A model generated the notes under the pieces. The model had not been told where the DNA came from and searched no databases. It saw only the letters and a program-made list of their open reading frames with translations. This document shows, piece by piece, positions 5,354 through 48,750 of a stretch of 64,000 bases of DNA. The DNA is from Macromonas bipunctata (GTDB lineage Bacteria > Pseudomonadota > Gammaproteobacteria > Burkholderiales > Burkholderiaceae_C): assembly GCF_002837135.1 (NCBI RefSeq), contig NZ_NWBQ01000048.1:1-64000 (forward strand), given 5' to 3'. The translations under genes were made by a program, and so were the position numbers. Position 1 is the first letter of the stretch; every line of letters begins with the position of its first letter.

Positions 5354-6022
5354 ATGTTCATGACCCCTTTGTCGGCCACCGAAATTCAGACTTACAACGC
5401 CAACGGTGGCAAAAAAGCTGTGGACTCTGATCCACAAGCCATGCAGGATCGCTTTTTGAAGCTGTTGGTGGAGCAGCTCAAAAACCAAGACCCGATGAAC
5501 CCGATGGAAAACGCGGAAATGACCTCGCAAATGGCGCAGATCAACACCGTAACGGGCATCCAGCAGCTTAACAGCACCATGTCCAGCATCACCACCCAGT
5601 TCAATGCGTTGCAAAACATGCAAGGTACATCGCTGGTGGGCCGCCAAGTGCTGCTGCCGGGCAACCAACTGGCATTCGATGCCAATGGCGTGGGCCAAGG
5701 GGCGCTGGAATTGCCCAAAGATGCCAAGGGCGTGAAGGTGGAAGTCATCAGCACCACTGGCACCGTATTGGGTACGCTGAATTTGGGCGACAAAACCGCT
5801 GGTACCCACCACTTCAACTGGAATGCCCAAGCCGCTGGCGTGACCGATTTGAGCAAGGTCAAGAGCTTCCGCGTCACGTCCGACGTCAAGGGCGTGGCCG
5901 CCACCGTGACCACGCTGGCGCCGCAAACCGTGGAAAGCGTGAGCTTTGCCGACGGCGCCATGCGCCTGCGCACCAGCAGCGGTGGCACGGTGGCCTACGA
6001 CGACGTGAAAGAGTTTATGTAA
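5354..6022 (+). CDS. flgD: Hook-capping scaffold FlgD
   Basis: FlgD forms the cap on which FlgE hook subunits polymerise and is discarded when FlgK arrives. The 222-residue protein has the conserved N-terminal core DRFLKLLVEQLKNQDPMNP and NAEMTSQMAQINTVTGIQQLN, then a FlgD Ig-like/tudor part with GTVLGTLNLGD and the family-type end GGTVAYDDVKEF. An alternative start two codons downstream (MTPLSA) is possible. The hook genes follow directly. Confidence 0.95.
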   Translation: MFMTPLSATEIQTYNANGGKKAVDSDPQAMQDRFLKLLVEQLKNQDPMNPMENAEMTSQMAQINTVTGIQQLNSTMSSITTQFNALQNMQGTSLVGRQVLLPGNQLAFDANGVGQGALELPKDAKGVKVEVISTTGTVLGTLNLGDKTAGTHHFNWNAQAAGVTDLSKVKSFRVTSDVKGVAATVTTLAPQTVESVSFADGAMRLRTSSGGTVAYDDVKEFM

Positions 6023-6062
6023 GCCGGGCCCAGACGCCCATTTGTGCAACTTTTTTTGAAAA

Positions 6063-6360
6063 GCTGAGAGGAAACTACCATGAGCTTTAACATTGGACTG
6101 TCTGGCCTGAACGCTTCGGCCAAGAACCTGGACGTGATTGGGCACAACATTGCCAACGTCAACACCGTGGGCATGAAGACGCAGCGCGCCGAATTTGCCG
6201 AGCTGTACGCTTCGTCGTTGGGCTCTGCCGGTGGCATGGGCTTGGGCATGGGCACCAGCATTGCCACTGTGTCGCAGGAATTTACGCAGGGCAACCTGAG
6301 TGACACCGGCAACGAGCTGGATCTGGCCATCAACGGCGCGGGCTTCTTTACGCTGGAAGC
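6063..6360 (+). repeat. Direct repeat A, copy 1 (5' end of first flgE)
   Basis: Beginning at the ribosome site GCTGAGAGG, this segment repeats at 7791 with only scattered silent changes. It encodes 94 identical N-terminal residues in the two hook genes. The offset between copies is 1728 bases. Similarity decays gradually after about 6360. Confidence 0.9.
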
Positions 6361-7789
6361 TGGCAACGGCGAGCGCATTTACACCCGCGCAGGCAACTTC
6401 AAGCTGGACGAGCTGGGCGAGATTGTGGCCAACAACGGCGCCAAGCTGATTGACCCGACCACGGGCGACCCGTACAAGTGGCCCAACGGCGGTGTGGCGG
6501 CGGGCCGCGAAACCACTGGTATCACGATGGATTTGAACTTGGATACGAACGCCAAGATCGCAGCACCTGACCCTACTACAGGTCTGACCGATCCGCCGCT
6601 GAAAACCTACGGCACCACGTTGCAAGTGTTTGACCAACAAGGCGCGGCCATCAACATGGATTTCTATTTCAAGAAAACCGAGGCCAACACTTGGGCCGTT
6701 TACGCCAAATACCCGGAAGGCACAGGAGATGCTGCTGCACCCACTGCTGTGCCCACCGATGGGGGCGAGATCAACGCGGCATGGTCTGCAACGGATCCTG
6801 ATCGGTATGAGGGAACTGATGTCGACTACGAACCCGATTTGAAGCCGATTGCCTATTTGCAATTTGATTCGTTTGGAAAAATGAGCAAAATGACGACTGA
6901 ATCGGTTCTTGAGGCAGCTCCCACGATAAGTAAGACCCCTTCTCCCGCAGTAGGAACTGCTGCTACAGAAACCAGATTTGGTGGTTTTACGGGTACCAAT
7001 ACTGTAGGCTCTGTTGGTACTTTAACCGTTGATGTGGTGACCAGTACAGACGGCCCAGATGCTGATGCCATATTTGATACTGCAACTGGTGTTCGTAAAA
7101 GCTACGCCAACGCAAAGCTTACAAGTGGCACGGCTGCTTTTCCAGCTGCCAATGCGGTTCTAACCTCGGCGATTGATAATGGAGATGGCACACTTACAGT
7201 CTCTGGTAGTGGTAATACTTGGATTTTTGCTGTCCAAAGCGATTGGAAGCCAACCAATATGGCTGTTCCACCAGCCTTCAGTGTTTCGATTGACAATATT
7301 AAAAATACCAGCGGTGCTACCGACTCTATTGGCCAGTTGAACAGCCCAGAGGGCATTACGGTCGATTTTTCCAAGATCACCCAAAACGCCCAGGAATTCA
7401 GCGTGACCGCGCTGGACCAGGACGGCAACCCGCCCGGCTTCCTGACCAAGATCAGCGTGGAAGACGACGGCACCATCTCGGCCAAGTACACCAACGGCCA
7501 GACCGAATCGATGGGGCAGCTCAAGCTGGCCAACTTCCGCAACGTGTCGGGCCTGGAGCCGTCCAGCGGTGGTTACTGGGTGGAAACCAAGGACTCGGGC
7601 GGCCCGGTGTTTGGCGTGCCGGGTTCGGGCAGCTTTGGCTCGTTGCGCGGCGGTGCGCTGGAAGAGTCCAACGTGGACTTGACCGCCGAGCTGGTGAACA
7701 TGATGACCGCGCAGCGCAACTACCAGGCCAACTCGCAGACCATCAAGACGCAAGATCAGATCATGAACACCGTGATCAACCTGAAGTAA
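6080..7789 (+). CDS. flgE: Flagellar hook protein FlgE, copy 1
   Basis: FlgE is the subunit of the hook, the flexible joint between rod and filament. This 569-residue copy starts with the axial motif (SGLNASAKNLDVIGHNIANV), has the FlgE-type LDLAINGAGFF and RAGNFKLDELG stretches, and ends with SNVDLTAELVNMMTAQRNYQ. The central region, roughly residues 145-420 (surface D2/D3), is Thr/Ala/Asp-rich, is less GC-rich than the ends, and differs strongly from the copy that follows. Both copies keep intact reading frames and the same ribosome site (GAGAGGAAAC), so both look expressed. A single flgE is usual in a lateral or polar system. Confidence 0.93.
   Translation: MSFNIGLSGLNASAKNLDVIGHNIANVNTVGMKTQRAEFAELYASSLGSAGGMGLGMGTSIATVSQEFTQGNLSDTGNELDLAINGAGFFTLEAGNGERIYTRAGNFKLDELGEIVANNGAKLIDPTTGDPYKWPNGGVAAGRETTGITMDLNLDTNAKIAAPDPTTGLTDPPLKTYGTTLQVFDQQGAAINMDFYFKKTEANTWAVYAKYPEGTGDAAAPTAVPTDGGEINAAWSATDPDRYEGTDVDYEPDLKPIAYLQFDSFGKMSKMTTESVLEAAPTISKTPSPAVGTAATETRFGGFTGTNTVGSVGTLTVDVVTSTDGPDADAIFDTATGVRKSYANAKLTSGTAAFPAANAVLTSAIDNGDGTLTVSGSGNTWIFAVQSDWKPTNMAVPPAFSVSIDNIKNTSGATDSIGQLNSPEGITVDFSKITQNAQEFSVTALDQDGNPPGFLTKISVEDDGTISAKYTNGQTESMGQLKLANFRNVSGLEPSSGGYWVETKDSGGPVFGVPGSGSFGSLRGGALEESNVDLTAELVNMMTAQRNYQANSQTIKTQDQIMNTVINLK
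7352..7789 (+). repeat. Direct repeat B, copy 1 (3' end of first flgE)
   Basis: From the codons for GITVDFSK to the stop, this 438-base segment is nearly the same as 9026-9463. The two proteins differ at only one of the last 145 residues (Thr to Ser in GYWVETKD/GYWVESKD). Repeats A and B flank divergent middles. Confidence 0.9.
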
Positions 7790-7790
7790 C

Positions 7791-8088
7791 GCTGAGAGGA
7801 AACCACCATGAGCTTCAACATTGGACTGTCTGGCCTGAACGCTTCGGCCAAGAACCTGGACGTGATTGGGCACAACATTGCCAACGTCAACACTGTGGGC
7901 ATGAAGACGCAGCGCGCCGAATTTGCCGAGCTGTACGCCTCGTCGTTGGGCTCTGCGGGTGGTATGGGCCTGGGCATGGGCACCAGCATTGCCACCGTGT
8001 CGCAGGAATTCACGCAGGGCAACCTGAGCGACACCGGCAACGAGCTGGACTTGGCCATCAACGGCGCGGGCTTTTTTACGCTGGAAGC
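7791..8088 (+). repeat. Direct repeat A, copy 2 (5' end of second flgE)
   Basis: Second copy of the segment at 6063-6360, including the ribosome site. The first amino-acid difference between the two hook proteins is Gly95 to Ser (TLEAGNGE versus TLEASNGE). Confidence 0.9.
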
Positions 8089-9463
8089 CAGCAACGGCGA
8101 GCGCATCTACACCCGCGCCGGCAACTTTAAGCTGGACGAACTGGGCGAGATTGTGGCCAACAACGGCGCCAAGCTGGTGGATCCGACCACCGGTGAGCCT
8201 TACAAGTGGCCCAATGGCGGTGTGGCCCCGGGCCGCGAAACCACGGGCGTGACGATGGACTTGAACCTGGACACCCGCGCTGCGGTTGCCGTGCCCAATG
8301 CCGTCACCGGCTTGACCGACCCACCGTTGAAAACCTATGGCACCACGCTGCAAGTGTTTGACCAGCAAGGTGCGGCCATCAACATGGATTTCTATTTCAA
8401 AAAAACCGAGTCCAACACGTGGGCAGTGTACGCAAAATACCCTAAAGACGATGGCACAAATAAAACAGCGGCAGCACCATCTGCAACACCGACCAAGGGT
8501 GGTGTTGTTGACGCAGCTTGGAGTTCATCTAACCCGGATCAATACGACGCGACAACAGACGCTGACAATGACCCCGATTTGAAGCCAATTGCTTTCTTGC
8601 AATTTGATTCTTTTGGGAAAATCAGCAATATGACGGAAGCCTCTACATGGGGCCCAACGTCAACTGGTACTGCCCCCACGAATCCGATCACCAGTGCTCA
8701 GCTGACGGGAACCGATCTTAAAATTATTGGTGGTGCAAATACCATAACCTACAGCAATGCCAGTGTGAAGGCTGTTGACACATCCGCTAGTTCAACAGGT
8801 GCGCCAGCAGCAACTACTTACACAGTCAACAGCGACGGTACGATTGATGTGTCTGTAGACCCTGGTGTTAACGGTGATCCCATAGTTAAAACAACGTACA
8901 AAGTTATTGAAAACTGGCAGCCAGCTTTCCCCGCTTCCGCCCCTGTTGCATTTTCTGTTCCTATCAACAACATAAAAAATGAAAGTGGTTCGACTACTTC
9001 TTTGGGTCAAGCAAACAGCCCGAAGGGCATCACGGTTGACTTCTCCAAGATCACCCAAAACGCTCAAGAGTTCAGCGTGACCGCGCTGGATCAGGACGGC
9101 AACCCGCCCGGCTTCCTGACCAAGATCAGCGTGGAAGACGACGGTACCATTTCCGCCAAGTACACCAACGGTCAGACCGAGTCGATGGGCCAGCTCAAGC
9201 TGGCCAACTTCCGCAACGTGTCGGGGTTGGAGCCGTCCAGCGGTGGTTATTGGGTGGAGTCGAAAGACTCGGGCGGCCCGGTGTTTGGCGTGCCGGGTTC
9301 GGGCAGCTTTGGCTCGTTGCGCGGCGGTGCGCTGGAAGAGTCCAACGTGGACTTGACCGCCGAGCTGGTGAACATGATGACCGCGCAGCGCAATTACCAA
9401 GCCAACTCGCAGACCATCAAGACGCAAGACCAGATCATGAACACCGTGATCAACCTGAAGTAA
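7808..9463 (+). CDS. flgE: Flagellar hook protein FlgE, copy 2 (tandem paralogue)
   Basis: This 551-residue protein is a second complete hook subunit 18 bases after the first. It shares the first 94 and, with one change, the last 145 residues with its neighbour, which form the D0/D1 polymerisation core. The middle of about 250 residues keeps blocks such as LKTYGTTLQVFDQQGAAINM and LQFDSFGK but is otherwise different (for example the Thr/Ser-rich 310-360 region). The identity at the ends points to recent duplication or ongoing gene conversion, with the surface domain diverging or replaced. It could build mixed hooks, or serve a second filament or growth condition; sequence alone cannot say. 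Confidence 0.92.
   Translation: MSFNIGLSGLNASAKNLDVIGHNIANVNTVGMKTQRAEFAELYASSLGSAGGMGLGMGTSIATVSQEFTQGNLSDTGNELDLAINGAGFFTLEASNGERIYTRAGNFKLDELGEIVANNGAKLVDPTTGEPYKWPNGGVAPGRETTGVTMDLNLDTRAAVAVPNAVTGLTDPPLKTYGTTLQVFDQQGAAINMDFYFKKTESNTWAVYAKYPKDDGTNKTAAAPSATPTKGGVVDAAWSSSNPDQYDATTDADNDPDLKPIAFLQFDSFGKISNMTEASTWGPTSTGTAPTNPITSAQLTGTDLKIIGGANTITYSNASVKAVDTSASSTGAPAATTYTVNSDGTIDVSVDPGVNGDPIVKTTYKVIENWQPAFPASAPVAFSVPINNIKNESGSTTSLGQANSPKGITVDFSKITQNAQEFSVTALDQDGNPPGFLTKISVEDDGTISAKYTNGQTESMGQLKLANFRNVSGLEPSSGGYWVESKDSGGPVFGVPGSGSFGSLRGGALEESNVDLTAELVNMMTAQRNYQANSQTIKTQDQIMNTVINLK
9026..9463 (+). repeat. Direct repeat B, copy 2 (3' end of second flgE)
   Basis: Second copy of 7352-7789, offset 1674 bases, ending at the flgE stop codon. 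Recombination between the B copies or the A copies would delete one gene or make a chimera. Confidence 0.9.
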
Positions 9464-9539
9464 CCGGGCAAGCGTCTAGCAAAACTGGCTGGCCCGTGGG
9501 GCTGGCCAGGTGGTTTGAATTTGAGCAAGGAGTTGCACT

Positions 9540-10280
9540 GTGGATCGCGTTATTTACACCGCCATGTCGGGCGCCAACGCTGCCATGTACCGGCAGCAGT
9601 TGCTTTCGAACAACCTGGCCAACGTCAACACCAACGGCTTTAGGGCCGAGATGGCCACGTTCCGGCACGTGCCGGTGCGTGGCGAAGGGGCCAGCACCCG
9701 CGTGCATGCGCTGGAGGCCACCGCCGGGCATTTGGATTTGCCGGGCACCGTGGCCACGACGGGCCGCCCGCTGGACGTGGCGGCACAGGGCCAAGCTTAC
9801 TTTGCTATTCAGGGTTTGGATGGCGTGGAGGCTTATACCCGTGCTGGGAATTTGCAAATTTCGCAAAACGGCAATCTGGTGGGCCATGCAGGTTTGCCAA
9901 TGCTGGACGCGGGTGGCGCGCCCATCACCATTCCAGCCAACGCTGAGGTGGGCATAGGCAGCGATGGCACCATCAGCGTGAAGGTGGCGGGCGAGAACCC
10001 GCAAGCTGTGGGCCGCTTGAAGCTCGTCACGCCCAACGCCGAGGCCCGCCTGCAACGCGGTGAGGACGGTTTGTTCCGGGGCGCGGACAACCAGCCTTTG
10101 CCCGCCGACCCGGCGGCACAAATGGTCAGCGGCGCACTGGAAGGCTCCAACGTGAACCCAGTCGAAGCGATGGTGAACATGATTTCTGCAGCGCGGCTGT
10201 TCGAGGCGCAAATGAAGATGATTAAAAATGCTGAACAAAATGACCAGACGGCTGGCAAATTGTTGGGCATGAACGCCTGA
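9540..10280 (+). CDS. flgF: Flagellar rod protein FlgF
   Basis: FlgF is a proximal rod protein. The 246-residue product begins with VIYTAMSGANAAMYRQQLLSNNLANVNTNGF (read in two parts) and ends with SNVNPVEAMVNMISAARLFEAQMKMI. The start codon is GTG at 9540, fixed by AAGGAG 9 bases upstream and by the family N-terminus MDRVIYTAMSG. It lies 76 bases after the second flgE, a slightly larger gap than elsewhere in the run. Confidence 0.94.
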   Translation: MDRVIYTAMSGANAAMYRQQLLSNNLANVNTNGFRAEMATFRHVPVRGEGASTRVHALEATAGHLDLPGTVATTGRPLDVAAQGQAYFAIQGLDGVEAYTRAGNLQISQNGNLVGHAGLPMLDAGGAPITIPANAEVGIGSDGTISVKVAGENPQAVGRLKLVTPNAEARLQRGEDGLFRGADNQPLPADPAAQMVSGALEGSNVNPVEAMVNMISAARLFEAQMKMIKNAEQNDQTAGKLLGMNA

Positions 10281-35998: not shown

Positions 35999-36769
35999 TC
36001 AATTTTTTTGACGTTTGAGCCATGCCCCTGGCCAGTGAGTGATGTTGCGTGTCAGTGTACTTTCATTGAAAGGCCATGCGGGCTGTTCGATTACGAAATC
36101 CGGATGCTGTGCCGCAAAGTCCTTGGCCGCTTGTGTCGGGTTATCTTGCGTCCATTCCAGATGGCCCCTGGGCGTGTCGGCGACCTCCGACATGACACCG
36201 TCGGTGGCCACGATGTAGGAGCTAGGTGTCACAAACTGGGCGTAGGCGTTCAGTTCACCCAGCACGTGGGCATAACTGTGGTTAGAGTCCAGAATGACCA
36301 ACACGGTCTCGCCAGGTTGAATGTGGGCTGCCACTTGTGCCACCACCTCGGGGGCGGTGGAACTACCTTCGATCAGTGTGATGCGGTCGCTCAGCGGATG
36401 CTGCTCAATGGCGGTGCGGTTGTGGGGGCGGATCTCGATGTCCACCCCAACCACGCGCCCTTTATCCATGGCCTTGCACAGACTGGAATAAAAAATCAGC
36501 GAACCACCATGCGCCACCCCCGTCTCGATGATGACATCAGGTTTTACTTGAAATATTGCTTCTTGTATGCGGATCATATCCTCCGGCAATTGAATGACCG
36601 GACGACCCATCCAACTGAAGGTGTATTGGTATCTTTGATCCCATCCCACCTTAATCCATTGATCGGAAATAATTTCGAAGGCTTCTTCCGAGTAAAGATC
36701 TATTATCTTTTCTTGATTCAAATTTTCGATACGGAGAGTTTTATTTTCTGTGTCAATTGTGATTTTCAT
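35999..36769 (-). CDS. CmcI-type SAM-dependent methyltransferase
   Basis: The 256-residue protein matches the CmcI/rhamnosyl O-methyltransferase group, which is often mislabelled cephalosporin hydroxylase. The SAM loop is DVIIETGVAHGGSLIF (82-90 core), with VVGVDIEIRPHNR after it and ILDSNHSYAHVLGEL plus a metal-site-like ATDGVM further on. In this context it probably O-methylates a sugar of the flagellin glycan. Its ATG overlaps the upstream gene's stop by 4 bases and it is the last sugar gene before fliS. The 5' part is noticeably AT-rich. Confidence 0.8.
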   Translation of the reverse strand: MKITIDTENKTLRIENLNQEKIIDLYSEEAFEIISDQWIKVGWDQRYQYTFSWMGRPVIQLPEDMIRIQEAIFQVKPDVIIETGVAHGGSLIFYSSLCKAMDKGRVVGVDIEIRPHNRTAIEQHPLSDRITLIEGSSTAPEVVAQVAAHIQPGETVLVILDSNHSYAHVLGELNAYAQFVTPSSYIVATDGVMSEVADTPRGHLEWTQDNPTQAAKDFAAQHPDFVIEQPAWPFNESTLTRNITHWPGAWLKRQKN

Positions 36770-37947
36770 GAGTGGTTCCAGTCAACAAGGTTCAGTGTGA
36801 TGCCGAGGTCGCTCAATAAACGCATGTTTTCTTCCCGATAATTGGGATTCATCAGTATGGCACTGCAAATGCGACGCTTGCTGATGTCAAAAGGGGAGAC
36901 AATAAGATGTCCTGTGCCTGCAATATAGTGGCCTTGTTTCTTGGGGTTGAGATCCACAACGCAATCAATCAAACTTTGATTCGAGTCAATCAAGTTGGCA
37001 AATGTAGAGCCCTTTGCCCCGGCTCCCCAGATGGAAATTGAGCCTTGTTGCCGCAGAAATTCTAGCTTTGTTTTCCATGTACTTCGCTCTTGTTGTTCAC
37101 TCTTCAAATATTCTGCGGCGAGTTTGGGTAAATTCGAATCATTATAATTTTTTTTGGTTTTATTTTTAGTTGCGTCTGTTGTTGCTTCTAACCATAAATA
37201 TTGGCCATTAAAAATATGTCTAATATTCTTCACTGAAAAACCCGCGGCCTCAAATGCTGTACGCAATGAATTTTTTGTAAATAGGGAGCAATGTTCGTAA
37301 AAAAAATCCCAAATTACTTTGTTGTGCAAAATCCAATCGACGCACGGGGTTTCAAAAAAAACCTTGGCTTGGGGTGAGTTATCTAAGGCAGATCTTACAG
37401 TTTTCAGCAATGCCAAAGGTTCGGGCACATGTTCAATTACATGCCGACATACCACGGCATCGGCTTGCACATCGGTACAACTGTCGTCGTAATAGCAGCG
37501 TCGAAATATTAAACGACCCTCTAACTCAGAATCCGGGCCAACATAGCTGGGGTCAAAACCGATACCACGGTTGTTGGTATCGGGGTAATTAACAAATTTT
37601 CGTAAAAAATGCCCCTTGCCACAACCTACTTCAACAATAGTACTGTTGCGAAGACCTTGTTCTTCAACCAAGTATTTAACCAAACCGTTGAGATAATCAT
37701 CGAAGTAATCTGAACAGGTTTGAGTGTTGTCGTAATCTTTGCCATAGGCCAGAAGTGACAAGTCGAATGCCCGATTGAATACAAAGCCACAATCTTGGCA
37801 TAGCACAAAGTCCAGATCACCTCGGGCAACTGCCAGTGCAGCCTCTCGTGTGGCCAGAATCAAATTCTGGTGTACGGGTACCTGCTCACGTTTCAGGAGC
37901 GTCGAAAAATGTACGCTGTTGCATATTGGACATGTTTGAGCACTCAT
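36766..37947 (-). CDS. Zinc-binding class I methyltransferase (C-methyltransferase-like)
   Basis: The 393-residue protein has the three-part layout of sugar C-methyltransferases: an N-terminal zinc knuckle (CPIC at 6-9, CQDC at 50-53), a SAM domain (VEVGCGKGHFL, 105-115; VVCRHVIEHVPEPLALL) and a C-terminal nucleotide-binding-like part (SISIWGAGAKGSTFANL). It differs from the 413-aa paralogue in this cluster: the active-site block reads FFYEHCSLFTKNSLR rather than YHEHFSYLS, and there is no THGGSLR. Catalysis may therefore differ (another position, O-methylation, or none). It overlaps both neighbours by 4 bases. Codon use is AT-shifted around 37.0-37.9 kb. Confidence 0.75.
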   Translation of the reverse strand: MSAQTCPICNSVHFSTLLKREQVPVHQNLILATREAALAVARGDLDFVLCQDCGFVFNRAFDLSLLAYGKDYDNTQTCSDYFDDYLNGLVKYLVEEQGLRNSTIVEVGCGKGHFLRKFVNYPDTNNRGIGFDPSYVGPDSELEGRLIFRRCYYDDSCTDVQADAVVCRHVIEHVPEPLALLKTVRSALDNSPQAKVFFETPCVDWILHNKVIWDFFYEHCSLFTKNSLRTAFEAAGFSVKNIRHIFNGQYLWLEATTDATKNKTKKNYNDSNLPKLAAEYLKSEQQERSTWKTKLEFLRQQGSISIWGAGAKGSTFANLIDSNQSLIDCVVDLNPKKQGHYIAGTGHLIVSPFDISKRRICSAILMNPNYREENMRLLSDLGITLNLVDWNHS

Positions 37948-38846
37948 GCCGTTGTCTCCTGAACAAGTTGCATCAATCCCTCTTTGAGGGACAGTGTAGG
38001 TTGCCACCCCAAGGCTCGCAAGGCTTGATTTTGCCCGACCAGCAATTCGGGTTCACCGGGGCGTTCTGTGGTCAGGTTCAGTACGGTGTCCGGCTGACTG
38101 TGTAGCAGTGTGGCCAGTTCACGTACCAAAGTCGCCAGTTGCACGGGTTGGCTAGAACTGATGTTGTAAGCCCCAGAGGCGCTGTGGTGCAGCAAAGTTA
38201 CCAGAGCCGATGCTACATCGGATGCGTGCAAAAAATCGCGGTATGCGGTGGCGTTGATGCCGAAAGCGGGACGTTGTCCACGCAACGCTTCAATCAAGGA
38301 GGGGATGAGACGTTGACGGTTCTCGCCCGTTCCAAAAGGCAGGAAGATACGCCCCCATGCGCACGAAACCTGATGTTGCTGACCAATCGCCATCACCAAG
38401 CGGCGTGTGGCATCTTTGCTGGTGCCGTACAGCGTGGCTGGACGCAGGGGCGTGCTGGCTTCCCGGCAGTAACCGTGTGACCAGTCGTATTCGGCGCAGG
38501 TGCCCGCCATGACCATGCGTTTACCCCCAGTTCGGCAAAAACTTTCGGCCAAACGGATGGTGGCTTCTACCCACCGCAGGTTCAGCGGTGAGGCCCAATA
38601 CTGGCCGTGTTCGGCATACCATGCCAGATGCAGCAAGTGCGTGGCTTGGGTTTCTTGGCAAACAGCATCCCAGTCGGCGGTGGCCAGCAGGTCGGCTTCT
38701 AGCCAAGATGAAGTGGTGGTGCTGTGCCCGGCTGGGTACATGGGTGGCCGTCGGCCTAACGTCACGGTTTCTATCCCGGCGGCGTGCAGGTGTTGCAGCA
38801 CATAACGTCCTAAGAAGCCGCTGGCTCCTGTCAACAACACTTTCAT
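37944..38846 (-). CDS. NAD(P)-dependent sugar epimerase/ketoreductase (SDR)
   Basis: The 300-residue protein is an extended SDR: GASGFLGRYV (7-16, NAD-binding), LLHLAWYAEHGQYW, and the YGTSK catalytic pair Tyr140/Lys144. In place of the usual VFGS-type serine strand it has VMAGTCAEYDWSHGY. In this cassette it is the natural candidate for reducing the 4-keto group of the CDP-4-keto sugar, the last step to a CDP-6-deoxysugar. It overlaps both neighbours by 4 bases (ATGA), so the cassette is tightly coupled. Confidence 0.8.
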   Translation of the reverse strand: MKVLLTGASGFLGRYVLQHLHAAGIETVTLGRRPPMYPAGHSTTTSSWLEADLLATADWDAVCQETQATHLLHLAWYAEHGQYWASPLNLRWVEATIRLAESFCRTGGKRMVMAGTCAEYDWSHGYCREASTPLRPATLYGTSKDATRRLVMAIGQQHQVSCAWGRIFLPFGTGENRQRLIPSLIEALRGQRPAFGINATAYRDFLHASDVASALVTLLHHSASGAYNISSSQPVQLATLVRELATLLHSQPDTVLNLTTERPGEPELLVGQNQALRALGWQPTLSLKEGLMQLVQETTA

Positions 38847-40084
38847 GGCTGGGCAGGTGCGATCAACGTCCAACCGGGAATGGCTACCGCAAATTGGCCG
38901 CCCCATGCTTGGATGTAGGACAGTTGTGCGGTGATTTCATCCCGCAAGTTCCACGGCAAGATCAGCACAATATCGGGCTTATCCGCACGCAAGTGGGCTT
39001 CGTCGACCACCGGAATGCGGCTGCCCGGCAAGAACTTGTCTTGTTTGCTGGGGTTTTTGTCCACCACGTACGGCAGCAGGTCTGCACGTACACCTGCAAA
39101 GTTCAACAGCGTGTTGCCTTTGGCGGCGGCACCGTAGGCCGCTACTTTACGGCCCTGGGCTTGGCAGTTGAGCAAGAACAGCAGCAGTTCCCGCTTGATG
39201 CGCAAGCACTGTGCTTGGAATTGGGTGTAGAAGCTGGCGTTGCGCATCCCCGCGGCGGTTTCGGTGGCCAGCATCGCATCGACCGATGGCAATACCGGAT
39301 GTGCCATGCTGTCGCTGCGTTGCGCAAAAACCCGCAGGCTGCCGCCGTGGGTGGGCAGTGTTTCCACATCAAAAACGGTCAAGCCGTTGGCATGGAAAAT
39401 GCGCTGTACCGCCGTCAACGACAGGTAAGAAAAGTGCTCGTGGTACAAAGTGTCAAATTGGCACTGTTGTACCAGCTGCAACAGGTGTGGAAATTCAAAG
39501 GTGGCCACCCCTTGCGGCTTGAGCAGGGTGGTAAATCCAGCCACAAAGTCGTTGATGTCGGGTACGTGGGCCAGCACGTTGTTGGCGGCTATCAGATCCG
39601 CAGCGTGTCCTTGATCCAGCAGTTCTTGTGCCAGTGCGGTGCCGAAGAACCGTTCTACCACCGCAAGGCCTTTGGCCCGTGCCGCATTCGCGGTGCTGGT
39701 GGTGGGTTCCACGCCCAGACAAGGAATGCCACGTGCTGCCACGTATTGCAGCAGGTAGCCGTCGTTGGCAGCCACCTCCACCACTTGGCTCTGATGGTTC
39801 AGGCCCCAGCGTTGCACCATTTGGGTTACATAGGCTTGCGCATGTGTCAGCCAGCTGCTGGAGTACGAACTGAAGTAAGCGTATTCGCTGTCAAACAACT
39901 CATGTGCCTGGGCAAAGTCTTCGGTTTGTACCAGCCAGCATTCTGTACACACCAGCACACGCAACGGGTACCAACGCTCTGGGGCATGCAGATCGCTGGC
40001 ATTCAAATAGGCGTTGGAGGGCGGTGCGGTGCCCAGATCGGTCAGTGACAAGCTGACAGGGGCGGCGCAATGGCGACATTTCAT
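38843..40084 (-). CDS. Sugar-nucleotide C-methyltransferase (TylCIII/TcaB9 type)
   Basis: The 413-residue protein has the hallmarks of NDP-4-keto-sugar 3-C-methyltransferases: a zinc knuckle (CRHC 3-6, CTEC 46-49), a SAM domain (VVEVAANDGYLLQYV), the active-site block YHEHFSYLS (214-222) and THGGSLRVF (245-253), and a C-terminal domain with VAAYGAAAKGNTLLNF and VVDKNPSKQ. Family members add a methyl to C3 of a 4-keto-deoxysugar, producing a branched sugar. It follows the cupin epimerase by 10 bases. With RfbF and RfbG alongside, a CDP-linked substrate is likely. Confidence 0.85.
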   Translation of the reverse strand: MKCRHCAAPVSLSLTDLGTAPPSNAYLNASDLHAPERWYPLRVLVCTECWLVQTEDFAQAHELFDSEYAYFSSYSSSWLTHAQAYVTQMVQRWGLNHQSQVVEVAANDGYLLQYVAARGIPCLGVEPTTSTANAARAKGLAVVERFFGTALAQELLDQGHAADLIAANNVLAHVPDINDFVAGFTTLLKPQGVATFEFPHLLQLVQQCQFDTLYHEHFSYLSLTAVQRIFHANGLTVFDVETLPTHGGSLRVFAQRSDSMAHPVLPSVDAMLATETAAGMRNASFYTQFQAQCLRIKRELLLFLLNCQAQGRKVAAYGAAAKGNTLLNFAGVRADLLPYVVDKNPSKQDKFLPGSRIPVVDEAHLRADKPDIVLILPWNLRDEITAQLSYIQAWGGQFAVAIPGWTLIAPAQP

Positions 40085-40094
40085 GGTGATATCC

Positions 40095-40655
40095 TCACAA
40101 ACACACGCCGCTGAAGCTGGCATCCAGCATGGGATGGGCCGCGTCGCGTGGTGACAAATCGGCAATCGGCAGTGGCCACGCAATGTCCAAGCGCGGATCG
40201 CGCACATTCAAGGCGGCCTCGCAGGTGAGGGTGTAGGGCGCTGAATGCAGGTACAGCAGTTCGGCACCGTCTTCCAAAGCTTGAAACCCGTGGGCACAGC
40301 CAGGTGGAATTAAAAACGCCGCGTGGTTGGAGGCCGACAATTCTTGTGCGTGCCATTGCAAAAAAGTCGGTGAGTTGGCGCGCACATCCACCACCACATC
40401 CCACACAGCGCCGTGCAGGCAAGTGACCAGTTTAGCTTCTGCCGCAGGCGGGCATTGGTAATGTAAGCCACGCACCATCCCACGCTGTGCGGTGTGGGTG
40501 TGGTTGATTTGTGCGATCGGCCAGTGCCAGCCTGCACTGGCCAGCTCCTCGGCACAAAACAGCCGGGCCAAGAAGCCCCGCGTATCGCGCAGTGGTTGGC
40601 GCTCAATGGCAACCAGCCCGTGCAGCGGGGTGGAGGAGAGGGTGAATCGGCCCAT
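40095..40655 (-). CDS. rfbC: RmlC-like cupin sugar epimerase
   Basis: The 186-residue protein resembles dTDP-4-dehydrorhamnose 3,5-epimerase: DTRGFLARLFCAEEL, the catalytic His in VRGLHYQCPP (His65), VVDVRANSPTFLQW, and IPPGCAHGFQALED followed by a Tyr-containing LLYLHSAPY. Because rmlA, rmlB and rmlD are absent and CDP-sugar genes flank it, it more likely acts on a CDP-4-keto-6-deoxyhexose (3- and/or 5-epimerisation). It lies 3 bases after rfbG. The substrate is inferred; the family is clear. Confidence 0.82.
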   Translation of the reverse strand: MGRFTLSSTPLHGLVAIERQPLRDTRGFLARLFCAEELASAGWHWPIAQINHTHTAQRGMVRGLHYQCPPAAEAKLVTCLHGAVWDVVVDVRANSPTFLQWHAQELSASNHAAFLIPPGCAHGFQALEDGAELLYLHSAPYTLTCEAALNVRDPRLDIAWPLPIADLSPRDAAHPMLDASFSGVCL

Positions 40656-40658
40656 GTG

Positions 40659-41732
40659 TTAGGTGTCGGAAGCGAGGTAATGGTCTATGTCGGCCAAACA
40701 CAAGGCACGCGCATCGGCACCTTGGCACAAGGCACTGTACCACCCTGTGGTGCGTGCAATAGCGGTGGCCAGCGACCAGCGCGGACGCACGCCCAGCACC
40801 TGGTGGGCATGTGCTGTTTCCAGGGCTAGCGATTGGGCTTCGTGTGGCCCGTGTTCCGAGGTGCCGTACACCACCTGGGCTTGTGGGTAAGCGATTCGCG
40901 CTTGTTCGATGACTTGCCGCACCGTGGCGGCCTCGTGTGGCCATGGGCCAAAATTGTAGGCACCTGCCATTTGTGGTTGTTGCCACAACACTTCAGCCAG
41001 CCGCAGGTAAGCCGCCAGTGGTTCCAATACGTGCTGCCAAGGGCGGGTGGCCTGGGGGTGGCGAATGTGCAATGCCCCACCGTGTTCCCAAGCACGTATG
41101 GCATCGGGCAACAGCCGGTCTTGTGACCAGTCGCCACCGCCGATCACGTTGCCCGCCCGAGCCGTGGCCACCGCCACACCTTGCGCGGACAGTAAGGCCG
41201 AGCGGTAGCTGGCCGTGACCAGTTCGGTCGCGGCTTTGCTGGCGCTGTAAGGATCGTGCCCGCCCAGTGCATCGGTTTCGCGGTACGGGTAGGCCCATTC
41301 CTGGTTGCGGTATACCTTGTCGGTGGTTACGACCACCGCCACCCGCACGCTGAGCAGGTCACGCAACGCATCCAGCACATGGACGGTGCCCATGACGTTG
41401 GTGTTGAAGGTTTCCAGCGGTTGGGCGTAACTGGGGCGCACCAGTGCTTGGGCCGCCAAGTGCAACACCACCTCGGGTTGCGTCTGCCGCACAATGGCCG
41501 CTACCGATGCCGCGTCCCGTATGTCGCACAAGTGGCTGTCTATGTGCTGTTCGGCTTGCACCAGCGTAAACAGTGCTGGCGCAGTGGTAGGTGGCAAAGC
41601 GATGCCGGTCACGTGCGCGCCCAGCCGTTGCAACCACAATGCCAGCCAAGCGCCCTTGAAGCCGGTGTGGCCTGTGAGCAGTACGCGCTTGTTGCGCCAA
41701 AAATCCGGGTGGGGCAGGGGTGAATGGTTCAT
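40659..41732 (-). CDS. rfbG: CDP-glucose 4,6-dehydratase
   Basis: RfbG (DdhB) converts CDP-glucose to CDP-4-keto-6-deoxyglucose. The 357-residue SDR has the characteristic GHTGFKGAWLALWL (NAD site), LHLAAQALVRPSY, the VVTTDKVYRNQEW block, PYSASKAATEL (Tyr and Lys) and RAGNVIGGGDWSQDRLLPD, followed by RHPQATRPWQHVLEPL, all distinctive of this enzyme. Its start codon shares one base with the rfbF stop (TGATG). Confidence 0.93.
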   Translation of the reverse strand: MNHSPLPHPDFWRNKRVLLTGHTGFKGAWLALWLQRLGAHVTGIALPPTTAPALFTLVQAEQHIDSHLCDIRDAASVAAIVRQTQPEVVLHLAAQALVRPSYAQPLETFNTNVMGTVHVLDALRDLLSVRVAVVVTTDKVYRNQEWAYPYRETDALGGHDPYSASKAATELVTASYRSALLSAQGVAVATARAGNVIGGGDWSQDRLLPDAIRAWEHGGALHIRHPQATRPWQHVLEPLAAYLRLAEVLWQQPQMAGAYNFGPWPHEAATVRQVIEQARIAYPQAQVVYGTSEHGPHEAQSLALETAHAHQVLGVRPRWSLATAIARTTGWYSALCQGADARALCLADIDHYLASDT

Positions 41733-42502
41733 CACCACCGCTTCCAGGGGGCTTTGCCGCTGTTCCACAGATCCTCCAGCAGATTTTTTTCTCGCAAGGT
41801 ATCCATAGGCTGCCAAAAGCCCGAATGCTCGAAAGCGCGCAATTCACCTTGGGCGGCGAGTGTGGCCATGGGTTCCATTTCCCAACTGGTGTGATCACCT
41901 TCAATGGTGTGAATCACTTGGGGCGACAACACAAAAAACCCCCCGTTGATCCAACTGCCATCGCCACGCGGTTTCTCGGTAAAGCCGCGCACGGTATCGC
42001 CATCGCGCTCCAGCAAACCAAAACGGCCCGGTGGCAGTACCGCCGTGACCGTGGCCTGCTTGCCGTGCTGCTGGTGAAACCGGATGCTGGCACCAATGTC
42101 TACGTCGGCCACACCGTCGCCATAGGTAAAGCAAAAAGCTTCATCGCCTTCCAAGTATTTGGCGGCACGCTTCAACCGTCCCCCTGTCATCGTGTCTTCG
42201 CCAGTATCGACCAATGTGACACGCCAAGGCTCGGCCTTCTTTTCATGCACTTCCATCCGATTGCTGACCATGTCAAAAGTCACATCCGACATGTGCAAGA
42301 AGTAATTGGCAAAATACTCTTTGATTAAATAGCCTTTGTAGCCACAACAAATGACAAAATCATTGATTCCGTGGGCGGAATACATTTTCATGATATGCCA
42401 CAGAATCGGTTTTCCCCCGATTTCAATCATAGGCTTGGGTTTCAGATGCGTTTCTTCTGAAATGCGGGTGCCCAAACCACCAGCAAGAATAACAGCTTTC
42501 AT
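41732..42502 (-). CDS. rfbF: Glucose-1-phosphate cytidylyltransferase
   Basis: RfbF (DdhA) makes CDP-glucose from CTP and glucose-1-phosphate. The 256-residue protein has [33 protein letters not shown], a GDGVADVDI metal site, and [20 protein letters not shown], typical of the family. It is the first step of the CDP-sugar branch. No rfbH (3-dehydratase) is present, so the cassette should keep its 3-oxygen rather than make a 3,6-dideoxyhexose. It starts a tight seven-gene block ending with cmcI. Confidence 0.94.
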
Positions 42503-42538
42503 TTTGAAAAGGGGGAGTGGTTTTGAAATATGGTGAAA

Positions 42539-43261
42539 TTATATTTCAAAGTAAGCCAAGCAACTGTCGTATTTGAATCTTTTGATTCTGAAGTTGCCCA
42601 ATGCTTTGTAGTCTTTCAATGCTTTTGTCTCACCTTGAAAGTTTTGATAATTGTATTCATCCAAAACAACGATAGCCCCTTTGGGCATGTTGGGTATGAT
42701 GTGTTCCAATGCCGTCAGTGTGGGTTTGTACAGGTCAGTATCCAAGATCAGCATGGCACAAGTGAATGCTGGATTGTCCTCAATGTACTTTGGCACGGTT
42801 TCGGTAATATCTCCCTTGACCAGTTCAAAACGCTTGATTTTATTGACGGGACGCAGCACATCAATAGCTTGCAACGATTTTTGAATCACGCTGAACGATG
42901 TGTCAGAAAAATTATTGCTGCTGATGTCTTTCGGATCGTTGTTCTCATCAATGCTAGAGAAACCCTCAAAAGTATCAAAACCGATAAATTTTCGGTTGAT
43001 GGCGTATGGTTCCAGAATTACGGAAAGATGCGCCAGCCAAAGAAAAGAATTGCCTTGGTACACACCGCATTCCACGATATCACCCGGAATTTCCTGCACC
43101 ATCTTGTACAGTTCGTATCTGGAGATCAGCGATTGAACGGTGATTCGGTTACTGAACAACATAGGAGAGCTTGTCAGCAAATGGGCAGGACTCTCTTGTT
43201 TGATTTCTTCAATCAAACTGTAGTATTTCTGTTCTTCGGCAGTAATGTTTCTTTTTGTCAT
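42539..43261 (-). CDS. TylF/MycF-family sugar O-methyltransferase
   Basis: The 240-residue protein has the TylF/MycF layout: VECGVYQGNSFLWLA (SAM loop, 64-78), FIGFDTFEGFSSI, LILDTDLYKPTLTALE and VVLDEYNY, the last two supplying Mg-binding acidic residues. Family members O-methylate sugar hydroxyls. The gene is strongly AT-rich compared with the backbone, a sign of transfer. It is 36 bases upstream of rfbF and downstream of the oxygenase-like gene. Confidence 0.85.
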   Translation of the reverse strand: MTKRNITAEEQKYYSLIEEIKQESPAHLLTSSPMLFSNRITVQSLISRYELYKMVQEIPGDIVECGVYQGNSFLWLAHLSVILEPYAINRKFIGFDTFEGFSSIDENNDPKDISSNNFSDTSFSVIQKSLQAIDVLRPVNKIKRFELVKGDITETVPKYIEDNPAFTCAMLILDTDLYKPTLTALEHIIPNMPKGAIVVLDEYNYQNFQGETKALKDYKALGNFRIKRFKYDSCLAYFEI

Positions 43262-43285
43262 GTTGTTTTTTGATAAGTTTAAGGG

Positions 43286-44110
43286 TTATTTGACTTCAAA
43301 CATGTACTTTTTGTAGTTACCTGTGGCTCTCGAATCCAAATTAACCGGAGGGTGATACTCTGAAGATGCAACAGGATCTACACGGTAATCAACGCTAAAC
43401 CGAATTTTGTTGGTGGTATTCTTGCCCGATCCGTGCAAATGGTGTCCAGAAAATACGAACTCAGTGCCAACCGGAAGCAAAATGTAGTAGTTCTTCTCAT
43501 CCGGTAACGCTTCGGTAGGAACAGGGTGGGGTCGATTTTCTTCGCCAATATTCTGTTCTGCTAAAATCCTGTATCTGGTATCCCATTCATCCAGATCAAA
43601 AATCTCTGAATTGTTACCAATAGGTTTGTGGAAATATTCTGGTGTAATATAAAAAGTCGATTGTGGCGTCACATTGGCTACGGGCATCCAGTGGTTGATC
43701 TGTTCTTGTCCTCCTCCGTACCACGTGTCTCGGTGAGCTTTGTAGTTGTACGAAATACCACTGGACAAAAAATCAGAGTTCGGAACAATTCTGAGCCGTG
43801 GCACGTCATAGAGCAAACCGGTTGAATTGGTTTGTGAGTATCGTTTTTTGATCAACTCAACCAAAATCTCACGTGTCAAACTGTCGTTGGTAAACCTGGA
43901 TTTGGCTTGTTTAGCTTTATGTACAAATTGTTGCACATCAGGAAAGTCTTCTGCGGAAATTGAATCAATCTGATTCTCGAAAATATCTTCAACGATATTT
44001 TTGGCGTGCTCTACCAATGCCATGCTTTCCGGAATACCCACAGCGATGGTCAATGAACCATCGTAAATATCCTGAATCTTCAGGAATTCTGTACAAGTCA
44101 GGCTTTGCAT
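43286..44110 (-). CDS. Fe(II)/2-oxoglutarate oxygenase-like protein
   Basis: The 274-residue protein looks like a phytanoyl-CoA-dioxygenase-like double-stranded beta-helix enzyme. A His-X-Asp pair occurs in AHRDTWYGGG (His126, Asp128). A distal His is present in FSGHHLHGSG (His226), followed by Arg in KIRFSVDYRVD that could bind 2-oxoglutarate. The N-terminal half is helical. It may hydroxylate or oxidise the glycan sugar or an acyl substituent. All candidate iron ligands are present. The gene is AT-rich and lies 24 bases before the TylF-like gene. Confidence 0.65.
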   Translation of the reverse strand: MQSLTCTEFLKIQDIYDGSLTIAVGIPESMALVEHAKNIVEDIFENQIDSISAEDFPDVQQFVHKAKQAKSRFTNDSLTREILVELIKKRYSQTNSTGLLYDVPRLRIVPNSDFLSSGISYNYKAHRDTWYGGGQEQINHWMPVANVTPQSTFYITPEYFHKPIGNNSEIFDLDEWDTRYRILAEQNIGEENRPHPVPTEALPDEKNYYILLPVGTEFVFSGHHLHGSGKNTTNKIRFSVDYRVDPVASSEYHPPVNLDSRATGNYKKYMFEVK

Positions 44111-44175
44111 CGTCTGTGTCCTTTGTGGTGAAGGTGCGGATTGAAGAAGAAAAAACTAAAAAACAAAATAAAATT

Positions 44176-44988
44176 TTAGTAGCTGGCCCAGTAGTCCTGC
44201 TGATCAGTGGTGACGCAATGTATATTGCCCACCATATTATCTTCAATGTAAATATTTTCTTCGCTCAAGTATTTCATGAGTAAGTAACTTCCCATTCTTT
44301 CATTGCAGAATGAAAGAGCACGCCTTTGGTATTGACTTAAATCGGCTGGATGGTTGGTTTTGATGAAGTTTATGCAAATATCTTCAAGTTTAGACATTAC
44401 TTTTAGAAAGATAAATGCAGGCAGCGTTCCGAATTCCGAGCCCCCGGGGATCAAAACATCGCAATTTAAAAAGTTGAAAGAATCTGTTGGAGATAAAATT
44501 CCAAGATCCAAAGCTATTGCAGTGTATTTCAGTAAATCAGCAGGACGATGAACGTTGCAATACTGCCAGTATAAATTGCCTATGTTGACAGGCCGTGATA
44601 TTAAAATGTCTGGCAACGAAACACCATCAAATGGATCGGGTTTGGTGTTGCTGGTATTTTTAATGACCTTCATGCCAGGGTAGTTGGATGAAGGTTCACC
44701 TAGGCAATTGGGATGCAGAAATTTTCTGTATTGAAATATGGTGATTGAGTCTTCGTGAACCGAGATGTCTAACTTCTTATTTAGGAACAGCTCCAGAATT
44801 GCAAATGTTCCTGCGGAACCAGATAAGAATGGGTAGAAGAACTCAATCTCATGCGATGCGTCCAGCAATCGGTATTGTTTGAGATCTTGATCGCAATCCA
44901 CCTGATTGTGGCCTGTCCAGATAATGGTGGTATTCTCTGGAAGTTTGTAGGTAATCTCTTTGTGGGCAATGCAAAAAATATGGTTCAT
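44176..44988 (-). CDS. Unrecognised 270-aa protein of the glycan block
   Basis: I do not recognise this family with confidence. The protein begins MNHIFCIAHKEITYKLP, has acidic motif patches (TGHNQVDCDQDLKQY; DISVHEDSIT), and an alpha/beta alternation compatible with a small glycosyltransferase-like or other nucleotide-sugar enzyme. No signal peptide or membrane helix is visible. It begins 7 bases after the large glycosyltransferase stop, so the two are co-expressed, and it is followed after 65 bases by the oxygenase-like gene. It is the most AT-rich gene of the window by eye, with many AAT/ATT/AAA codons. Confidence 0.6.
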   Translation of the reverse strand: MNHIFCIAHKEITYKLPENTTIIWTGHNQVDCDQDLKQYRLLDASHEIEFFYPFLSGSAGTFAILELFLNKKLDISVHEDSITIFQYRKFLHPNCLGEPSSNYPGMKVIKNTSNTKPDPFDGVSLPDILISRPVNIGNLYWQYCNVHRPADLLKYTAIALDLGILSPTDSFNFLNCDVLIPGGSEFGTLPAFIFLKVMSKLEDICINFIKTNHPADLSQYQRRALSFCNERMGSYLLMKYLSEENIYIEDNMVGNIHCVTTDQQDYWASY

Positions 44989-44995
44989 GATTTAC

Positions 44996-47900
44996 TTATT
45001 CAAAAATTTTTCGATGCCATTCATGGGCATTCTTAGATATGTAGAAATTATCTTCGACCCATTCGTGGAGTTGTTTGCCTTTTTGTACCCTTAATTCGCG
45101 ATTGTTTATTAAGGCTTCAATATTTTCCAGCCACTCTTTCGAGTTGTTCTTGCACTTGTACACAGGCGGGTTCGCAACGCGAAACGGATACACGTCCGAG
45201 CACACCACAGGCCATCCCATCGCACCATATTCAAGCAAGCGTAGGTTGCTCTTGCACTCATTAAATTGGTTATCTTCCAATGGTGCGATAGCAATATCGA
45301 GATCAAGAGATGACAGCTTCTTGGGGTATTGCCTGTAAGAAACAAATGGATGAAATTCTTTGATGTAAGGACGCAAATCGTCTGGACACATGCCCATGAA
45401 GATCCAATCCACCTTGTCACTTAAAGTTGCGACCACATCGGTCATCATTTGCAAATCGCCCAGATGCTGTGCAGCACCCGCCCAACCTACGCGCAGCCGT
45501 TGCCTTTCTGGAGGAGGGCCATGGTAAAAAATGCCCCAATCTTCTTCATCTAGGCAGTTGGGCATGACGTGTACGTCGTCGCAGTATTTTTGGTAAAAAT
45601 CTGCCAGAGGTTGCGTTGAGGTAATCAGCCGATTGCTTAGACTTAACGCTTCGCGCATACGTGTATCGCCTTCGCGCTGGTGAATGTTGTAGTTTGGATG
45701 GTGTTTGGACAGATTCCGCAACAAATCGTCCACCATTTGAACAATGAACAGTTCTGGGCACACCAGACGGTATTCACGCAACAATTTGAATTGCAAATCG
45801 GCAATACTGTGCTGAACTATCAAGCGGTCTGGATTGGCACGTGCCAATTCGATGGCTGTGGGTGTACGCACGTTGCGGTTGACCATGGGTAGCACCACGC
45901 AGGTCTTGGCCAATCCTGCATTTTGTACCGCATGCAGCGGTTCAACCACACGGTATTGGCCTGAGCCACTGGAAATGGGCAGTGCCAGCACGGTAGGGCG
46001 GTCTTTGCGCGAGCGGTGCCAATCGATCACGATATCGGTTTCAATGTCGTAAGCGCGCACCAGCGACAAATGGCGGTTATAACAACCATCACGCGCTAAA
46101 GTAGAGCCCCAGCGACGCAAGAGGTGTTCTTTTTCAGTGATGGCTTGGCCTTGCAGGTACAACGATTTTTCTGGATCGTAGGCCAAGAAAGCCACCGTTT
46201 TGCTGCCTTGGTGCAAGACATTGCTGATGGGAGTCCACACATGCCGGTAACCCTCATAACCAGCGCGCAGGCAATAATCCAGCACGGTGTAGTACAGCGA
46301 AAACTCGGTGGTGTTGAAGCCGTTGAGGCTTTGCCACAGGCTGCGGCGTGTCAGAAAACAATGGCCCGCCACGGTGGTCACGTCTTGCGCGGTTTGCAGG
46401 CGTGAGTACACCCCTTGTTCTTCCAGCAGGCCGCGTTCACCCAGATAGGGAGCTGTGCTGTTGAGCAACCCAGCAATCATTGGCCCGCCCACCAGACGAG
46501 GATCTTTTTGCACTTGCAACGTCAGGCGTGGTGCCACACAGCCAATGTCGCTTTGCTCCATATAAGCGCACAGGGTTTGCAGCCAGTAACTGTGCAGGGC
46601 TTCGGTGTCGTCATCGGCAAATAGCAGCAAATTGCCTGTAGCCACGGCGGCACCTGCGTTCAGTGCGGCGGCGTGGTTGTAGTGACCGTCGGGCGTTTGC
46701 ACCACGCGAATGGGCACCGACAGCTGTGCAATGTCGGGCTCTGCAATGGCCTCACAGGTGGTCGCGTATTGGGTCTCTTGTGTTACCAAAACCACTTCGG
46801 TCAATTGTGGGTCTTTGAACGCTTCCAGCGAGCGCAACAAACATTGCAAGTACCCCAACTGGTGTCCGGTTGGGATAATGACAGATACGCGGTGTGGTGT
46901 TTTTGGGTGGTATTCCACCAAGCGAGTGCCCCAGGTTTGGCCGGGTTGCACGCTGGCGTGCAGTTGTTGCTGTTGCAAAAATGCCTGCAACTGCGCCATT
47001 TCGTCGGCTTCTGTATGCGCCGCTGCTTGGCCTGTACTGTGTGCCAGTACCGTGTCGATGTGTGCTACAGCGGCTTTGCCATGCTGGGCCAGCAGTTGCA
47101 TGGCCAACCCATAGCTGTTGCCCATGTGGCCGGGGTTGGATTGCTGAAACCAAACGCTGCTGCGTACGGCAATGGCCGAACCCAGGTAATTAAAGGCGCG
47201 CAGCCATTCAATGTTGGCATCGGGCTTGAAGTGTGGCACGGGGCCGTTGTTGTCGGGGCCAGGCTGATCGTCGTCGCAGTACACCAGTTGAATGGAAGCA
47301 TCGCGCGCGCTCAGTGCAAATTCCACCAATGCATGGGGCTCCAGTGTGGTGCCTGCTTCCAGCAACAGTGTCCACGGGGCGGGGCTGGCCACCATGGCCA
47401 GTGGGGTTGTTGCATCGTGTTGTATCCACCGCAAATGTCCGCCCAGTTCTTCTTCATTGACCGGACAGGAAACGGGTGCAATCACTGTAATGTGAGTAGG
47501 TTTCCAGAAGTTGTGTTCTAGGCTGTCCAGGCTGGAGGCTATCGCCTCCATGTCGGTGTGGGTGGCGTAGAGCAGAACCTCAAAGGTTGGCAGCGTGCCC
47601 GAAGCCACATGCTCTGCGTAGATGTCGGCATCAATTTCGCGCAATGAGCTGCGTTTGCGCCAGATTTGGTATTGTTCTTGTAAGTGGCGGTATTTGGTGG
47701 CATCGGCCCAGCGGGCACGTTCTTTCTTCTCGATAGCCCATTCTTCAAGAGGTTCCAGCACCGCACCTGGCCACGCTTGTGCCAGTGTCAAGGTTTGGGC
47801 CACAGTGTTAGCACGTTCCGCAAAATGCCGCACATCGGCCTCGGAATGAACCACCATTTGTTGGTAACGTGCGGCAAAGTCGTCCAGTTCAGTGCGCAGC

Positions 47901-48688: not shown

Positions 48689-48720
48689 GTGAAAAAAGTG
48701 TAGAAGCAACGGCCCTGAAC

Positions 48721-48750
48721 AATCTAAGGCAGAGCCCAACCTTATCACAA
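48721..48750 (-). promoter_or_regulatory. Weak promoter candidate for the glycan block
   Basis: On the minus strand TTGTGA, 18 bases, TAGATT gives 4 of 6 matches at each element. It lies between the hairpin after fliC2 and the glycosyltransferase start, where a promoter is expected if the block is transcribed apart from fliC2. Confidence 0.3.

Follow-up and report, generated by a model that had tools for sequence, protein, structure and literature searches.

The window analyzed here comprises 64,000 nucleotides of Macromonas bipunctata DNA (positions 1 to 64,000 of contig NZ_NWBQ01000048.1, forward strand, assembly GCF_002837135.1). Over positions 5354-10280 its + strand carries flgD, two consecutive flgE genes, which we call copies A and B, and flgF, and the pair thus lies where the gene for the FlgE hook protein is expected. 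This observation is real and unusual, and the same bacterium encodes an extreme form of FliK, the hook-length ruler. The elements of the locus are as follows.

5354..6022, + strand: flgD, hook cap, upstream neighbor (Pfam)
6063..6079, + strand: leader of copy A with the ribosome-binding-site-like AGAGGAAA (from the printed sequence; putative function)
6080..7789, + strand: flgE copy A, intact open reading frame for a hook protein of 569 amino acids (aa), four Pfam families above cut-off
6080..6361, + strand: copy A codons 1-94 (D0, Dc and the start of D1), same amino acids as copy B, synonymous divergence (dS) 0.22
6089..6165, + strand: 77-nt exact tract, partner at 7817-7893
6362..7351, + strand: copy A middle (rest of the N-terminal D1, D2/D3), divergent, with low GC content at third codon positions (GC3)
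7352..7786, + strand: copy A last 145 codons (end of D2, D1, D0), 144/145 residues as in copy B, dS 0.27
7592..7719, + strand: longest exact tract, 128 nt, partner at 9266-9393, possibly a recent conversion tract (coincides with a run of 40 codons for identical amino acids that has no synonymous difference)
7790..7807, + strand: 18-bp spacer before copy B with a near-identical copy of the leader (from the printed sequence; putative function)
7808..9463, + strand: flgE copy B, intact open reading frame for a 551-aa hook protein, four Pfam families above cut-off
7808..8089, + strand: copy B codons 1-94, identical counterpart by protein comparison
8090..9025, + strand: copy B middle, divergent counterpart
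9026..9460, + strand: copy B last 145 codons
9266..9393, + strand: partner of the 128-nt exact tract
9540..10280, + strand: flgF, downstream neighbor (Pfam and NCBIfam)

Both copies are free of stops and frameshifts, and in both the Flg_bb_rod, LlgE_F_G_D1, FlgE_D2 and Flg_bbr_C families score above their Pfam cut-offs. Both also pass the TIGR03506 subfamily threshold (315.1 for A and 313.1 for B, cut-off 70.25). One flagellar set was detected in the genome, with a single PF02120 FliK match and FlgE at the tandem locus only; no further FlgE was found in the genome, the other matches to the FlgE queries being the adjoining flgF, flgG and flgK. The genome is a draft of 115 contigs, which gives an assembly artefact some foothold, but its completeness is 99.86 and its contamination 0.09, and because differences are spread along both copies and they are joined by an 18-bp spacer that brings a separate leader and ribosome-binding site, a simple assembly duplication is unlikely; we consider the chance that the pair is artefactual very small.

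The first-pass annotation of this DNA had described two hook genes with shared ends and a divergent, less GC-rich center, and both features are real. Residues 1-94 are identical between the copies, 144 of the last 145 residues agree, and the GC content of the center is 0.498 in A and 0.493 in B compared to 0.60-0.61 at the ends. At the nucleotide level the first 420 nt are 93.6% and the last 435 nt 94.5% identical, and the ends stand out as direct repeats (6060-6359 with 7788-8087, 95%; 7282-7581 with 8956-9255, 86%). The exact tracts of 77 and 128 nt make it plausible that recombination could collapse the pair to a single or chimeric flgE. The annotation had furthermore proposed a constant polymerizing core with a variable exposed domain, and this is broadly borne out, in that the copies agree in D0, Dc and most of D1 and differ in D2/D3. 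The edge of the conserved block, however, is offset from the domain border: in A the Pfam D2 match spans residues 153-449, and the near-identical C-terminal block (A 425-569) enters it by about 25 residues.

As the cause of the alike ends, gene conversion or strong constraint had been offered. Constraint is real, for single-copy relatives also have ends that are better conserved than their middles, and D0/D1 form the core of the hook (PMC5069557). An old duplication whose ends were held by purifying selection on the polymerizing core, with no conversion, is nevertheless improbable, because the ends are also alike at synonymous sites. By the NG86 method, dS between A and B is 0.22 at codons 1-94, 0.40 at codons 95-150, 1.12 at codons 164-209, higher or not computable deeper into the middle, and 0.27 over the last 145 codons. 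Among codons for identical amino acids, the fraction with synonymous differences is 0.144 in the N-terminal end, 0.530 in the middle and 0.124 in the C-terminal end. The resulting ratio of ends to middle, 0.253, is lower than that of all 32 within-genus pairs of single-copy flgE genes that served as controls (0.44-1.54), pairs that were formed from 43 relatives (43 of 45 loci; L046 and L027 had no usable FlgE frame) and are not independent of each other. In five control pairs whose middles have diverged to a similar extent (0.63-0.73 amino acid identity), the ends are 0.80-0.95 (N) and 0.74-0.84 (C) identical, compared to 1.00 and 0.99 in the tandem pair. Even the conserved D2 block (A codons 164-209) differs synonymously at 15 of 40 codons for identical amino acids, versus 13 of 90 in the N-terminal block (p 0.005) and 14 of 113 at C-terminal codons 451-569 (p 0.0017). 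Purely constrained ends were therefore rejected. Constraint alone does not account for how closely the ends agree at synonymous sites, which favors gene conversion, on top of constraint, in the end regions of a tandem duplication that is itself older, although conversion as the cause is not proven.

The middles align with each other over their length (37% identity, E 2e-31). When searched against 339 family genomes, each found the other copy (A to B, E 1.1e-19; B to A, E 8.5e-21), and besides this paralogue they matched just one 40-residue stretch, in genome G321 (E 9.4e-4); the idea that a middle was imported from one of the sampled family members thus has no support, the paralogue being the sole clear match and the G321 match marginal. 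GC3 is 0.44 in the middle of A and 0.47 in that of B versus 0.81-0.88 at the ends, and both middles are among the lowest of the 302 100-codon windows of the 64-kb stretch. The middle has a lower GC content than both ends in 2 of 43 relatives (L014 and L032), and GC3, checked in eight relatives, is lower in the middle in four, with the largest drop (0.25, L014) smaller than that of the tandem pair. Since low GC3 is common to both middles, the low-GC middle predates the split of the copies.

These data bear on a different history, in which the tandem duplication is recent, the ends are alike since they are young, which makes conversion between the copies unnecessary, and one middle was replaced by recombination with a hypervariable allele of an unsampled close relative. 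The moderate dS of the ends (0.22 and 0.27), gradient tests within the ends that are partly significant, the anomalously low GC3 of both middles and the sampling of the genus by one genome all suit such an import. Yet, as described above, the sole clear match of each middle in the family is the other copy, and the low GC3 that both share is older than their split. Furthermore, divergence climbs over the shoulders (dS 0.40 at codons 95-150) instead of jumping at one border, and a run of 40 codons with no synonymous change lies inside the C-terminal end. We regard this history as unlikely, albeit deserving of serious consideration.

A survey of copy number in relatives, which the first-pass annotation had suggested, revealed no second tandem flgE pair in samples of the family, the order and the class, which overlap and each contain the genome of the window. 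FlgE was found in 287 of 399 genomes of the family sample, the other 286 with one match each; in 263 of 399 of the order sample, where 48 other genomes have at least two FlgE_D2 matches; and in 196 of 369 of the class sample, where 23 genomes have at least two. In none of these 71 multi-match genomes was another tandem pair seen, as judged from the DNA for nine and from coordinates only for 62; the survey misses a pair whose second D2 scores below the threshold. Seven of the nine have a single flgE between flgD and flgF. The other two, the distant genomes G1103 (L090:1427-3993) and G653 (L091:1672-3616), carry flgE in two overlapping frames between these genes, which may reflect a frameshift, a sequencing error or a programmed event. 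Two further arrangements came to light. Downstream of flgI, family f38 encodes a protein of about 860-910 aa (L080:8694-11282, L082:2692-5427) that has a FlgE_D2-like match and is, by position, probably FlgK. In family f2, genomes G531 and G568 encode, on a different contig from the flg operon, one more FlgE-like protein of larger size (1126 and 679 aa; L085:4-3384, L089:2987-5026). A contig scan of genomes yielded one truncated relative, a viral scan gave none, and a plasmid scan for FlgE gave only matches below 60% identity. No tandem flgE pair was found in the literature, of which few subscription papers were covered, so that absence is not proven.

Parts of D2 combine few amino acid with many synonymous changes (4 of 46 residues and dS 1.12 at codons 164-209; 3 of 35 and dS 0.91 at codons 416-450), which points to selection at the protein level after the split of the middles and suggests that A and B alike are under selection. 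For the Salmonella hook, D0-Dc has been given as residues 1-71 and 358-402, and D2-D2 contacts along the 6-start direction involve named residues (PMC6874566). When these contact patches were mapped by eye via alignments, A and B were identical at five of eight, one of the five being assessable at a single residue only, and differed by one residue at the other three. As the patches mostly match, co-polymerization of A and B in one hook is plausible. Our preferred reading, to which we assign a probability of roughly 0.6, is that the bacterium has one flagellum with two co-polymerizing hook subunits that would share a constant core and present a diversified surface.

A number of observations weigh against this reading or the conversion that it includes. 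Neither copy reaches the cut-off of the best NCBIfam FlgE equivalog, NF004238 (375.2 for A and 378.9 for B compared to 400, which is a curated score threshold and not a biological feature), probably because of the long middle, and predicted structures of A and B have a mean predicted local distance difference test (pLDDT) score of 35.4 and 35.8, respectively. The longest run with no synonymous difference covers 40 codons for identical amino acids (A 505-546; permutation p 0.0002 gene-wide and 0.019 within the ends), but this test is not specific, as 3 of the 32 control pairs also have p < 0.05, the lowest being 0.006. The gradient within the ends is modest (p 0.043 for codons 1-94, 0.083 for 1-125, 0.005 for 425-569 and 0.087 for 451-569), faster middles also occur in some single-copy pairs (genus g63, with ratios from 0.44), and the mutual dependence of the control pairs has to be borne in mind. 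The representation of the genus by one genome leaves room for one middle to have come from a congener outside the sample. Finally, Campylobacter jejuni has two hook genes and one of the proteins in its hook (PMC5069557), a precedent for the alternative in which a single copy builds the hook while its partner is seldom produced or has a different purpose. That alternative is at odds with the 18-bp distance between genes that have near-identical leaders and with the excess of synonymous over amino acid changes in the D2 of both copies, and we find it rather unlikely.

The one FliK detected in this genome by PF02120, which lies away from the flgE pair and does not figure in the first-pass annotation, is 1641 aa long (L102:4265-9190, minus strand, contig C65 of genome G000). 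Its gene stands directly behind fliJ and fliI; its C-terminal Flg_hook domain occupies residues 1505-1587 (43.1 bits, cut-off 29.8), and its Ala/Thr/Pro-rich linker holds 122-aa repeats. Stretches were fetched from 22 relatives, 17 with fliI and five without it, and in the 17 FliK is 414-734 aa long, with 10 of the proteins confirmed by Pfam, seven assigned by position and C-terminal motif, and the start of the 734-aa one (G020) probably over-extended. FliK is of ordinary size (440 and 438 aa) in two relatives whose single FlgE is long (528 and 531 aa), and a long FlgE is thus not by itself coupled to a long FliK. A plasmid scan with the FliK C-terminus gave no match. The ruler constants are 0.19-0.20 nm per residue, and Salmonella has a FliK of 405 aa and a hook of 55 nm. 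If the ruler rule holds, a FliK of 1641 aa suggests a hook of about 290-302 nm, which is near 0.3 micrometers.

Such a long hook would need more subunits, and the pair could have been kept mainly for dosage, with the differences between the middles neutral or nearly so. The predicted hook length speaks for this explanation, but by itself it leaves middles as divergent as these unexplained, and we doubt that it is the main one. The most far-reaching combination, a giant hook of about 0.3 micrometers made as a two-protein copolymer, with cores kept interchangeable by conversion, outer domains diversifying and a fourfold-enlarged FliK setting the length, is put forward as a tentative picture that may well not hold in full.

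Starting from what the sequence itself provides, namely the tandem pair, the synonymous pattern, the sign of selection in D2 and the length of FliK, we propose the following model for the origin and use of the two subunits. The ancestral flgE would already have had a long, lineage-specific outer domain. A tandem duplication within the gene run flgBCD-flgE-flgFGHIJKL would have copied it along with its ribosome-binding site, after which the outer D2/D3 of both copies diverged and gene conversion, aided by strong selection on the polymerizing core, kept the ends alike. Both copies are probably transcribed on one message, and a single flagellar system would export both proteins. Since A and B match in D0, Dc, almost the whole of D1 and the majority of the mapped D2-D2 contacts, they are most likely intermixed in a single hook whose surface is varied, and the 1641-aa ruler suggests that this hook would be exceptionally long.

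Elsewhere in the window, two flagellin genes on the minus strand (48792-49634 and 51367-52212) encode proteins of 280 and 281 aa that are 84% identical and show somewhat fewer synonymous differences near the start. They flank a frame (49792-51249) that is putatively fliD-like by position and reading. The adjoining region 35999-48748, partly of low GC3, encodes sugar methyltransferases and epimerases as well as a nucleotidyl transferase, a protein of 1250 aa that contains a glycosyl transferase domain, and three proteins with no Pfam match. It may be an island for surface or flagellin sugars.

Among known systems, flaA/flaB of C. jejuni are likewise neighboring genes that encode paralogues of a single axial flagellar protein, and recombination between them has been reported (PMC5126078, citing Wassenaar 1991, 1995 and Harrington 1997). 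By analogy, the flgE pair may work like these tandem flagellins, but flaA/flaB form the filament and not the hook, are about 95% identical and use different sigma factors, whereas the two flgE genes have strongly diverged middles and are separated by 18 bp within a single gene run. The FlgE proteins of Campylobacter and Caulobacter, with hypervariable outer D3/D4, resemble the pair in having a common D0-D2 base and a lineage-specific outer part, and differ from it in that each hook is built of a single hook protein. Salmonella FlgE fitted with the D3 and D4 of Campylobacter supports motility, while a chimera with D3 alone builds no hook and is not motile (PMC5069557), which shows that the outer parts are not freely interchangeable. 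Two FlgE proteins per genome are also encoded by C. jejuni (Cj0043/Cj1729c; PMC5069557), Bdellovibrio (Bd0530/Bd3395; PMC2277423) and Rhizobium leguminosarum (RL0728/pRL120064, on the chromosome and a plasmid; PMC11103875), but these are separate loci, by locus tag or, in Rhizobium, by replicon, and the accessible parts of these sources describe no tandem pair with shared ends. FliK of this bacterium is like its family in its C-terminal Flg_hook domain and its place beside fliJ/fliI and unlike it in its 1641-aa length and Ala/Thr/Pro-rich repeat linker, so that it would test the ruler model far past ordinary lengths. Hooks have been described as assemblies of a single protein in about 120 copies (PMC5069557). 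The flgE pair is a natural experiment in which conversion would act on part of a gene and spare the rest, and a natural two-subunit hook, if true, would show how far the outer layer of a universal joint can vary while its core stays constant.

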